Shown here piece by piece: positions 13,021 through 30,370 of a DNA stretch of 64,000 bases. The position numbers were made by a program, and so were the translations under genes. The DNA lies in the NCBI GenBank assembly GCA_947034895.1, contig OX344761.1, positions 77,375,839 to 77,439,838 of the forward strand, given 5' to 3'. Numbering within the stretch: position 1 is the first letter of the stretch; each line of letters starts with the position of its first letter. The DNA is from Rhytidiadelphus loreus. Lineage: Eukaryota; Streptophyta; Bryopsida; Hypnales; Hylocomiaceae. The notes beneath the pieces were generated by a model. The model was not told where the DNA came from. It was given only the letters and a program-made list of their open reading frames with translations, and did not search any database.

Positions 13021-13117
13021 CAGGGTTGCTAGCATGTGAGCCTGTGAGCGTGAGCCTGTGAGCCTATGAGCTGGAATTTTTTTTTTGAAAATAAATATTC
13101 AAGGACCTATGACCGTG
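13021..13117 (+). repeat. Left terminal inverted repeat of the large transposon
   Basis: Starts CAGGGTTGCTAGCATGTGAG, followed by four to five GTGAGC/ATGAGC words, an A/T tract, and AGGACCTATGACCGTGG at about 13101-13117. Its counterpart is the inverted sequence at 30168-30370. The regular subterminal words are candidate transposase-binding sites, as is typical of MULE termini; that role is inferred. Confidence 0.75.
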
Positions 13118-13530
13118 GTTTTAGTGAACTTTGATTTTTAGAATGTGTTAGTTAATTTTATAAAATAAAGGGCACTTACAAAGCATTGCAACATTTTGGC
13201 GGCAACAACCAACTGTGTTTATTTATAATTAATATCACATAAGCAAAAACTATGACGGGAGACAAATGAAGTCAATGAAGTAGCCATAAAACACACAAAT
13301 CCATTCATAATAAAAATCAACACATAATATAATAACTCACAGGATATATCAATCCAATGAGGTTAAGTTGCAGTAGACTCAGTCGCAGAATCCTCATTGG
13401 TAGAGGACTCTGAAGTCTCTCCACCCTCAGATGCACTAACATCTATGAAATCAAGAACATTCAAAGCATAATTAGGTCTATGTTTTTTTGGTTTAGAGCA
13501 ACCAAACTCTATAAAAGTTGATGCCAATTG

Positions 13531-16500
13531 CTATGTATAAATAGGCAAATCAAAAGTCTTGTCCGGACTCAGAAGAAGCCTTTGTTTTTGCCGTCTTGTA
13601 TTCGTCGACTTCAACCTCTGACGGCTATACAAACACATGAAAATGTATTAAAATGATTAAACATACAGAATTGCATACTTATATTAAATTGAAATGTACG
13701 AGAACTTACTTACAAGATTTGGTCTTCCGAGCAAACTTGTGAACTATGATGTTCATGGCATCTGGATCTTGAGATGTTGCAACCTCCACTGGCTGCTCTG
13801 TCGTTACTGTGACCGGAGTGGTCCTTCACATAGGTTTAAGGATGGTGTCAAAAATGTCTTTTTCTTCTTCTAAAGCGACTATGTGACGCCCTGTTCCACG
13901 GCAAGCCGTAATGGAGGAACCTATTACAAACAACACACCGTTCATTAACTACAGTAGTCAAAATATGAAATACAATTTCAATATAAAATCATATCATTGG
14001 AAACCTACCAGTTGCTACAGTACAGTCCAAAACCACATCGCCTTCAACGGTTGTCCCTTCTATAAGGAACTGGAAGAACCTTGCATCCTTCTCACGAGGT
14101 CCACACCACGGTACTTGTTTGTTCATCAACATCGTATCTTCCGTGGTATAGTTGATTAATGTGTCGTCACGATCAAGATCCACTTTAGCCTTTCTCATGG
14201 ATTGTGTTTGTTTGAAAGAAAAGTCAGATTTAGCTCCTCCACCAAGGGCTTTCACTAACAGGGTGATCCCGAACTTCATCGTCTGGCAGCATTGAAAACA
14301 AAAACATATCAAAGATGAATCATACAAATGACATGAAAAGTGAGAGTATAATAACTAATTAATTACAAAAACATACCGTGTTTGAAGGTTCTACTCCCGA
14401 AGTTAAGTGCATACGGTTTATTCCCAACCACTCCTTTTTCTTCGTAATCGCATACACTTCACAGAGCCCAGCAATGACTCCCTTAGCATGCGCGCTCCAT
14501 GAGTGAAAGACGACAACACACCCATCGTCTTGCAAATGCTTTTCTGCAAAAAGAAAAGCTTGTTGAATTGCCTCATACTCCTTGTCAGCGTTCCATTTTG
14601 GCACATCTGTTTTTGGAAATGACACCCCCGGTACTGGCAAATTCTCTTGGCAGTCAAAGAATATTATGTCCACTCCAGGCTGATGTGATACTTCACCACC
14701 ATCTTGGCGAACCTTCCCAGAAGACAACTGCAAACAATTTTTTTTTAAACAAATAACAATTAATACATGTTACTATCATACAAGCCCACGAAAATGAAGA
14801 AAAACAATATCAAAGATATTAGGGTTTAACCTTTTTCAAGAAGTCCATGACTTCCTTGTAGCATGTCATCCCTTCTTCATCTTCATTCTCCATGACATCA
14901 ATGATAGAGGCGTTCAATATCAACTCCTCAGAGTTCACATCGTCATCATCACCAATGACAATGACTTGCGTGCCTTGCGTTACCATTTCCTCAGTCAGCT
15001 CCGTCAAAACAGCCTTTCTCTTTACTCTGTTGCACGATCCAGATTCCATTTGAGAGCCCTGATCCACAGTTGAAGACACTGGAATTTGGTCACCACCTTC
15101 AATTTTCTTCTTGCCTTTGCCTTTTGTCTTCCCCTCCTTCTCTGCCTCCTTCTCCTTCTCCGCCAACTTCTCCAAACGCTCTGCTTCTTTCTTTTCTTTG
15201 TTTGCCCGAATTTCTTGTTCTTTTCCTTCCTTCTTCTTATCGGCTATTGTCCTCCGTGCAATGGCCCTCTTCTTCTGTGTGTCGTTGAGATCTGCAAACT
15301 CAGGAACCTCCAAATCAACAACACCAAGGCCATCAAATGACTTCCGAAGTCCCACCTCCATCGGATGAGTGAATGTCACTAGGCAATCCAGATACCAGCC
15401 TCCACCGCTCAGATTTGCAGTCGTGAAAGTCCGAAGTTGGGCGGCGGTAAACATACACTCTTGCGAACTCCGGTCCAGCCACGATGACAAGAACGCAGGA
15501 AGATCCTCTCGTGCTAAAGCATTTTTGGCTACAAGCTCAAGCTTCAAGTACCTGCCAATTGAACAAATATAGTTCAGTTTAAATCTTTTAAATATTTGCG
15601 GTTCATTATAATGTACGTTCAAACAACCCCAAAAATACTTAAACATTGGTAAATAATGCTTTGAATTAGAAACTAAGTAAAAGATGTACACCAATATTTA
15701 AATTTTAATATAAATTAAGAAAAAAATGAAATTCATAGTAGTACCAAAAGTAGAGGTACTGTAAGGTACACTCTAATGTTCCGTCCGGTATGACGGAAGT
15801 TTAGGGGATCCCTTGCAGTAACCCCAGTACTAAAAACATCAAATTAAAAAAAATTAAAATATTACCAATACTGGAGGTATTGCAAGATACACCGCAAACC
15901 TCTGTCGGGTCCGACGGAGGTTTGGAGTGTACCTTACACTACCCCCACTTCTGGTAATATCAAATGAAAATATGTTTCTTCTTCATATTACCAATAGTGA
16001 GGGTACTGCAAGGTACCACGATAACCTCCATCGGGTCCGACGGAGGTCTTCAGTGTACCTCACGCTACCTCCACTTCTAGAAATATAAAATAAAAAAATG
16101 TTTATTCTTCATATTACCAAGACTGGGGGTAATGCAAGAACCCCTGAAAACCTCTGTCGGGTCCGACGGAGGTTTCAAGTGTACCTTACTCTACCCCCAC
16201 TTTTGGTAATATCAAATATAAATATATTTTTTCTAGATATTACCAATAGTGGGGGTACTGTAAGGTACCACGATAACCTCTGTCGGATCCGACAGAGGTT
16301 CACGAGGTAACTTGCATTACCTCCACTATTGGTAATATCAAAAATTATTTTATTCATTTTTTTGATATTATCAATACTGGAGGTACTATAAGGGTAGTCT
16401 CCGTAACTCCAGTTTTTTTTCTTTCAAGAATTATCTAATACATTGTTATGTACTTTCATCGCCACATATCTAATAACACACTTTCAAATTCAACATGAGC

Positions 16501-29574: not shown

Positions 29575-29761
29575 AATATATATATATATATATATATATA
29601 TATATATATATATATATATATATATATATATATATATATATATATATATATATATATATATATATATATATATATATATATATATATATATATATATATA
29701 TATATATATATATATATTTTTTGTTTTGTTTTGTTTTGTTTTGTTTTGTTTTGTTTTGTTT
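29575..29761. repeat. (TA)n microsatellite followed by (TTTTG)n
   Basis: About 143 bp of uninterrupted TA at 29575-29717, then eight or so TTTTG units to 29761. It lies between the transposase stop codon and the right end of the transposon. The open reading frame across it is meaningless. Confidence 0.98.
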
Positions 29762-30167
29762 AAATTTTATTGTTATTATTTTTTTTATTATTTTAAAGGA
29801 CATTTGGATCCTATTATTTTAAGAAAAAATGATTTCTATTTCCATTTTTTTTCTATTTCCCTTAATTTTTTTAATTGTTAATTTTTTTTCCCATCAGACT
29901 CTATTTTAATTTTTTATTTCAAATTGCATTCATGTTTCGAAGTGATCATCTACGCTAGCAATGCCATAAAGGCTAGGATATAGCCATCTTGAATTCAGTG
30001 AGTATGTTTGCTTAGCATATTATTTTATGTTTGTTAGTAGAATTCAAAGAAGGTACATAATATTTGAATTGTAGTGGGACCACTAAATAATTCAACTCAG
30101 TCACTAATTTTTGAAGTTCTTTTCCAACAAAAAATATCAATCATGAATCCATTGACAAATAATCTAC

Positions 30168-30370
30168 AAATCCACGGTCATAGGGGGAGCGGTTATAGGT
30201 CCTAGAATTTGCTAAAAATAGAAAGATCTCTGAAAATTTTAAAAAGATTCTCCTCAAACACAATTTTTTTTGAAAAAAAGTTATATTTTTTTTTTCAGGC
30301 TCCACGCTCACAAGTTCCACGCTCGCAACTCACAAGCTCGCCGCTCCAAGCTCACATGCTAGCGTCGTTG
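30168..30370 (-). repeat. Right terminal inverted repeat of the large transposon
   Basis: Read inward from 30370 it starts CAACGACGCTAGCATGTGAG and continues with GAGC words. Inner blocks AGGACCTATAACCG and CCCTATGACCGTGG (at about 30170-30205) match the left end. It is longer than the left copy because of extra A/T-rich sequence and a second CCTAT block. Confidence 0.75.

Follow-up and report, generated by a model that had tools for sequence, protein, structure and literature searches.

A decayed putative Mutator-like element of Rhytidiadelphus loreus with an opposed gene for a DNA-methyltransferase-like protein

Mutator-like elements (MULEs) are flanked by target-site duplications (TSDs) of 8–11 bp, and members of the MUDR clade have 9–10-bp duplications and SWIM-type transposases, according to the accessible text of a MULE clade survey (PMC6446971). 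MuDR of maize has two genes, mudrA and mudrB, of which mudrB is given there as coding for a protein of unknown function. VANDAL (Hiun) of Arabidopsis carries the accessory genes vanB and vanC; according to the available part of its description, VANC binds tandem repeats in noncoding DNA that contain short motifs, and silent marks are lost as a result (PMC10398659). Here we analysed a 64-kb stretch of the Rhytidiadelphus loreus genome (the window; contig OX344761.1), in which positions 13021–30370 hold a decayed DNA transposon of ∼17 kb. Like MuDR it has two genes, a transposase gene and an opposed second gene (the cargo gene), and like VANDAL it is a MULE-type element with an accessory gene. 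In contrast to mudrB, the second gene here has ∼1,100 codons and a methyltransferase-type domain, and the two genes are divergent. Matching ends, a TSD, an IS256-type DDE transposase, an opposed methyltransferase-type gene and a small element with similar ends all occur together, and we consider it probable that this is a decayed member of a family of Mutator-like DNA transposons with two genes. The second gene probably encodes a DNA-binding factor acting on the element.

Read inward, the ends are CAGGGTT-GCTAGCATGTGAGC from 13021 and, reverse-complemented from 30370, CAACGAC-GCTAGCATGTGAGC, i.e. both terminal inverted repeats (13021–13041, plus strand; 30350–30370, minus strand) begin with CA and have the same 14-bp word 7 bp inward. 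The end core, GCTAGCATGTGAGCC, lies ∼7 bp inward of the termini, and on the left the 14-bp word is followed by GTGAGCCT-type short repeats. A subterminal motif, CCTATGACCGTGG, is found at 13106–13118 (plus) and inverted at 30172–30184 (minus); the chance of an inverted 13-mer common to two random 200-bp stretches is 0.003. Outside the element, CATTGTAATC (13011–13020) and CATTATAATC (30371–30380) form a 10-bp TSD with one mismatch, which falls in the MULE range, and random 10-mer pairs of the window agree with at most one mismatch at a frequency of 8e-5. The termini, subterminal blocks and flanking duplication described in the initial annotation of this DNA were thus all recovered. Scanning the 64 kb for the 14-bp word with up to two mismatches gave four sites, the two ends of the large element (0 mismatches) and inexact copies at 41490 (plus) and 42027 (minus). 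In a 16-bp end scan that included two core variants, five simulated sequences gave nothing below three mismatches; the variants were copied from the small element described below, and the unaltered 14-bp words give the same four end sites.

One result weighs against an element with matching ends: when the 260-bp ends are aligned locally with gaps, the score of 33.5 stays under the highest reached by 400 random pairs (38.5; mean 17.4). Hence, the end similarity is confined to short blocks. Terminal inverted repeats are long in many MULEs but missing from some; here there is no long one, the inverted ends being short and consisting of the identical 14-bp word plus the subterminal word. The alignment result would also suit two unrelated elements lying adjacent or nested, with shared ends and duplication arising by chance, as would the interior from 19.8 to 24.3 kb, which is coding-poor and partly repeat-rich. 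However, such an arrangement is very improbable given the joint improbability of a 14-bp inverted word, a 13-bp subterminal word and a 10-bp duplication, the presence of a second element with similar ends and motif, and the linkage of both genes elsewhere.

The transposase gene lies on the plus strand. Its first exon (25300–27456) runs from a MACIRVDG start through a zinc-binding GCM-like region and a DDE domain to WGGFMQM, and after a GT..AG intron (27457–27946) the second exon (27947–29335) contains NLSETVHNK and a C-terminal CxC..CxH (SWIM-like). An early stop interrupts exon 1, as do changes of frame before 26167, and exon 2 has one in-frame stop (28934–28936). FDHVKR, MVDSAMANW and NLSETVHNK are all found in the window transposase and would together supply the acidic catalytic triad, with NLSETVHNK providing the third residue. 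The nearest fold of the DDE domain is IS256-type, with ISCth4 (IS256 family), a bacterial insertion sequence compared by this domain alone, as the best match. The window exon and 44 relatives, 45 members in all, matched no Pfam transposase family at E 0.1, nor did the window transposase exons alone match one; a sequence search of solved structures with the transposase profile gave no match, and viral contigs contained no transposase relative. Compared with VANDAL, the transposase here is therefore too distant for a Pfam transposase match, which does not exclude a divergent MULE lineage. For the SWIM-type MULE transposase proposed initially, the IS256/Mutator-type DDE fold and the SWIM-like C-terminus speak in favour, but a Pfam transposase match is missing and the SWIM match of the exons (E 0.11) stays under the Pfam cut-off. 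Because this lineage escapes Pfam models, such elements may be missed in annotation. Shortly after the gene, at 29576–29761, AT is repeated 71 times, and a run of TTTTG comes next.

The cargo gene is read on the minus strand, away from the transposase gene. Its core (13363–18564) consists of ten exons (18564–17897, 17780–17588, 17472–17278, 17189–16974, 16837–16602, 15551–14831, 14727–14377, 14282–14009, 13920–13710 and 13624–13363) and nine GT..AG introns in one reading frame. Joined, the exons give 1,109 codons, in which there are four internal stops besides the terminal one, whereas random joins of the same exon sizes (n = 2,000) had at least 35 stops each; this null picked no frame-keeping boundaries, unlike the cargo model, and so flatters the gene model. 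Since the ten exons share one frame with few stops, they form mainly one gene, broken by nonsense codons. A TTGCAG acceptor precedes the exon at 18564, and LQ or MQ also stands at this place in several relatives; the exon is therefore probably internal. Upstream, two further exons with their own stop can tentatively be placed in 18799–19742 (about 19736–19614 and 19263–18799, minus), and through a GTAAGT donor inside them, after 19105, they could be spliced in phase to the exon at 18564. A possible 5′ exon at 24382–24744 (minus) is open and has a GTAAGC donor in phase 0, and more coding-like sequence, reaching about 24927, is in a different frame. By phase and splice sites, 19736–19614, 19263–18799 and 24744–24382 could tentatively fit the cargo gene, which would then cover about two thirds of the element. 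The initial annotation had proposed two or more opposed minus-strand genes; the opposed coding sequence is there, but ten of its exons share one frame, and the exons 5′ of them, up to about 24.9 kb, may or may not belong to the same gene. For the minus-strand sequence as a whole, a single gene and two genes are equally likely, given the in-phase internal donor. Cytosine deamination in silenced DNA as the origin of the stops found no support, with a CpG observed/expected ratio of 0.71 in the element against 0.685 and 0.496 in the flanks.

The C-terminal part of the cargo protein is DNA-methyltransferase-like (exons in 13829–14727, minus), with LDCTVATGSS at the motif I position and FFDCQEN at the motif IV position. 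Searched as the spliced protein with two stops as X, this domain matched the PHROG methyltransferase families phrog_18293 (2.4e-8), phrog_3008 (1.7e-6) and a third (9.5e-6), and two more at 0.00028 and 0.002 across most of the domain. CcrM was both the best NCBIfam match (1.6e-5, far below the curated cut-off) and, in the PDB, the best solved-structure match (0.031), and Pfam N6_N4_Mtase (PF01555) at 0.012 was under its cut-off. In tblastn against phages, 407 records were obtained at E ≤ 1; among the best 20 of these identity was 22–26% and E 1e-5 to 0.3, and 7 of the 407 covered at least 80% of the query. A domain homologous to beta-class N6/N4 DNA methyltransferases is present, and its catalytic motif is changed. 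This motif has the form D/S/N-P/L-P-Y/F/W, and in four phage enzymes it reads DLPY (three) or DLPF (one). The aromatic residue is absent from both plant sequences read across the methyltransferase part, the window (DCQEN) and the Riccia sorocarpa protein P0003 (DLPSG); as the automatic alignment offset the window row, its position was set by eye, with GVDIIFFDCQEN opposite SIDMILCDLPYG. Motif I is altered in the window, DCTVATGSS, and is DFAAGWGAS in Riccia. Sequence search of solved structures with P0003 gave no match, and phages contained no relative of P0002.

It is conceivable that intact family members encode an active DNA adenine or N4-cytosine methyltransferase that marks element DNA, protecting or activating it, and that the present copy has decayed. 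The methyltransferase-type domain, the two CcrM matches and the phage DNA methylases, including those covering most of the query, agree with such an enzyme. However, we regard it as unlikely, for the aromatic catalytic residue is missing from both plant sequences (n = 2) and motif I is altered too in the window. Given the altered catalytic motif of the two sequences, DNA binding seems likelier than methylation. In this respect the cargo protein differs from N4CMT of bdelloid rotifers, likewise a bacterial-type DNA methyltransferase in a eukaryote, which is an active enzyme with SPPY and for which the accessible part of the source describes no transposon context (PMC11065753).

The N-terminal domain of the cargo protein (17897–18387, minus), which we call DGNHRR, is ParB/DndB-like by motif only. 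DndB has a DGxHR motif in common with ParB. The residues CDGNHR are kept in at least 90% of 31 aligned sequences. Scanning 40 members gave DUF1015 in two (best 0.002), DndB in one (0.032) and KMP11, a family unrelated to the DGNHRR domain, in three (best 0.0047). Viral contigs and genome contigs contained no relative of the domain, phages and plasmids no match for P0099, and solved structures searched with the DGNHRR profile gave weak unrelated names only (best E 0.049). A structural model reached pLDDT 58.7 and had no usable match (best Foldseek E 2.4); it may have suffered from the long Riccia sequences in its alignment. Hence, of the ParB/methyltransferase-like partner proposed at first, the methyltransferase-type C-terminal domain held, but ParB identity was confirmed by none of the library (including PHROG), phage, plasmid and fold searches and stays at the DGxHR motif.

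One cargo exon has 375 related proteins, the best with 72–73% identity over the whole query; among the 120 of them listed, lengths are 152–339 residues and none has a functional name. The whole cargo protein has only three relatives, all from the liverwort Riccia sorocarpa (E 5.8e-18 to 1.1e-10). To see where such relatives lie, we compared the longest-contig sizes in the transposase and cargo homology tables, co-location being inferred from identical size. Contigs of 10 kb or more entered the comparison, 41 distinct ones for the transposase (from 94 rows) and 38 for the cargo (from 119 rows). Five sizes were common to both sets, 15646, 38454, 170958, 185737 and 583271 bases, whereas sizes jittered in 20,000 trials coincided 0.005 times on average and at most once; contigs below 10 kb showed no coincidence. 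These identical sizes strongly suggest that transposase and cargo relatives share contigs, and the 15.6-kb contig is the strongest case. In four of the five pairs, the transposases are 83–91% alike and the cargo exons 75–89% alike, with the same nearest pair for both genes and the order of the other two differing between genes. In the fifth (583,271 bases; P0067/P0140) the transposase is 35–41% like the others and the cargo exon 75–80%, so that the subclades are incongruent; this pair, kept in the count of five, may represent different elements on a long contig.

These linkage data also bear on whether the methyltransferase-like gene is nothing but a gene of the host, caught once in Pack-MULE style. 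Plant MULEs are well known to capture genes, as the survey's accessible text also has it (PMC6446971), and the many introns are host-gene-like, with annotated relatives in Riccia. Nevertheless, the 375 relatives of one cargo exon point to a repetitive family, five contig sizes are common to both genes with matching subclades in four, and the cargo is opposed to the transposase and, with the tentative 5′ exons, occupies most of the element. We hold a one-off capture to be quite unlikely.

A small non-autonomous element of 565 bp (41483–42047) has ends resembling those of the large one. Its ends, set 7 bp outside the core by the large-element model, are CAATGGT-ACTAG.. and TACAGTT-GCTATT.., the right end being TA rather than CA, and its flanks agree at 7 of 10 positions (chance 0.0066). 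The interior consists of 50–69-bp tandem repeats that multiply the subterminal motif. In the window, exact copies of CCTATRACCRTGG occur only at the two large-element ends, and five sites with one mismatch lie in the small element; two R positions of this motif were picked after viewing both elements. In five simulations no site had one mismatch or fewer and 15 sites had two, which leaves the two-mismatch sites (three in the small element and two elsewhere) without weight. Since ends and motif both recur in the small element, they travel together.

Returning to a two-gene Mutator-like family, the second gene would be a standing component, kept by the family and transcribed away from the transposase gene. 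The DGNHRR domain and the methyltransferase-type fold would probably bind the element's own noncoding sequence, e.g. the CCTATRACCRTGG repeats, and the protein may help transposition or, like VANC, counteract silencing. The repeated CCTATRACCRTGG would then be a candidate natural target of the second protein, though it may instead be one of the transposase. VANC target repeats in noncoding DNA resemble the repeated subterminal motif here, and in the available text VANC has no methyltransferase-like description (PMC10398659), the likeness being drawn from descriptions. A more far-reaching possibility, which we put forward tentatively and with more doubt than belief, is that a widespread plant MULE lineage outside the described clades acquired a DNA methyltransferase of bacterial type, joined to a DGNHRR domain, and that this is now a self-recognising epigenetic factor, which recognises tandem element-specific motif copies and alters or masks the DNA so that host silencing fails, as a plant counterpart of the fungal TET/JBP transposons.

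Genes for epigenetic-type enzymes are likewise carried by Phytophthora MULEs and HarbingerS elements with SET histone methyltransferase and by fungal transposons with TET/JBP dioxygenase, as the accessible parts of the sources report (PMC12730594, PMC6446971). The SET and TET/JBP enzymes act on histones or 5-methylcytosine, whereas the domain here resembles N6/N4 DNA methyltransferases of bacterial type and belongs to a plant-type MULE. The MULE clade survey lists, in the text available, PMD, DUF, SET, an ovarian tumour gene, FAR1, MutB and unknown open reading frames as other motifs or genes, and the word methyltransferase is absent from its main text (PMC6446971). Titles and abstract openings of the open-licence PMC literature mentioned no MULE with a DNA-methyltransferase-like gene, which is not proof of absence. 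The proposal of a new cargo class can thus be kept in part: no recorded MULE with such a gene was found in these sources, but transposons with other epigenetic genes are already known. Few transposons carry epigenetic factors, and those that do are informative (VANC in Arabidopsis, SET in oomycetes, TET/JBP in fungi). If the present interpretation is true, a family of plant MULEs in which the transposase is paired with a protein like bacterial DNA methyltransferases would extend this set by a new kind. It would also show how land plants came to keep a DNA-modification protein of prokaryotic type, and it gives a testable prediction on element-specific motifs.

Other repeats and genes were also found in the window. 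An array of 126-bp palindromic repeats with the centre CCTCCGTCGGACCCGACGGAGG lies inside a cargo intron (15738–16392), a single copy of the CCTCCGTCGGACCCGACGGAGG-centred palindrome lies in the transposase intron (27640–27661, within a repeat copy at 27616–27661), and the centre occurs nowhere else in the window at up to four mismatches. Weaker relatives of these repeats start at 19867 and 20440, and in the coding-poor middle of the element 19867–21386 has interspersed 40–134-bp repeats, several with GTCGGGTCCGA cores. Outside the element, 49400–49936 is an open stretch without a Pfam match, which we take to resemble the catalytic subunit of the Rab3 GTPase-activating protein. At 1383–2657 there are exons of a gene for a glutamate-receptor-like channel (Pfam Lig_chan, E 1.8e-7 and 1.5e-15); this ligand-gated ion channel family includes plant glutamate receptors. 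An inverted repeat at 6668–6854, with exact 14-mers common to about 6668–6720 and 6802–6854, is a possible small foldback element, and the short word CCTTTAGGGGTTAA is dispersed in both orientations at 31986, 40872, 45235 and 56252.
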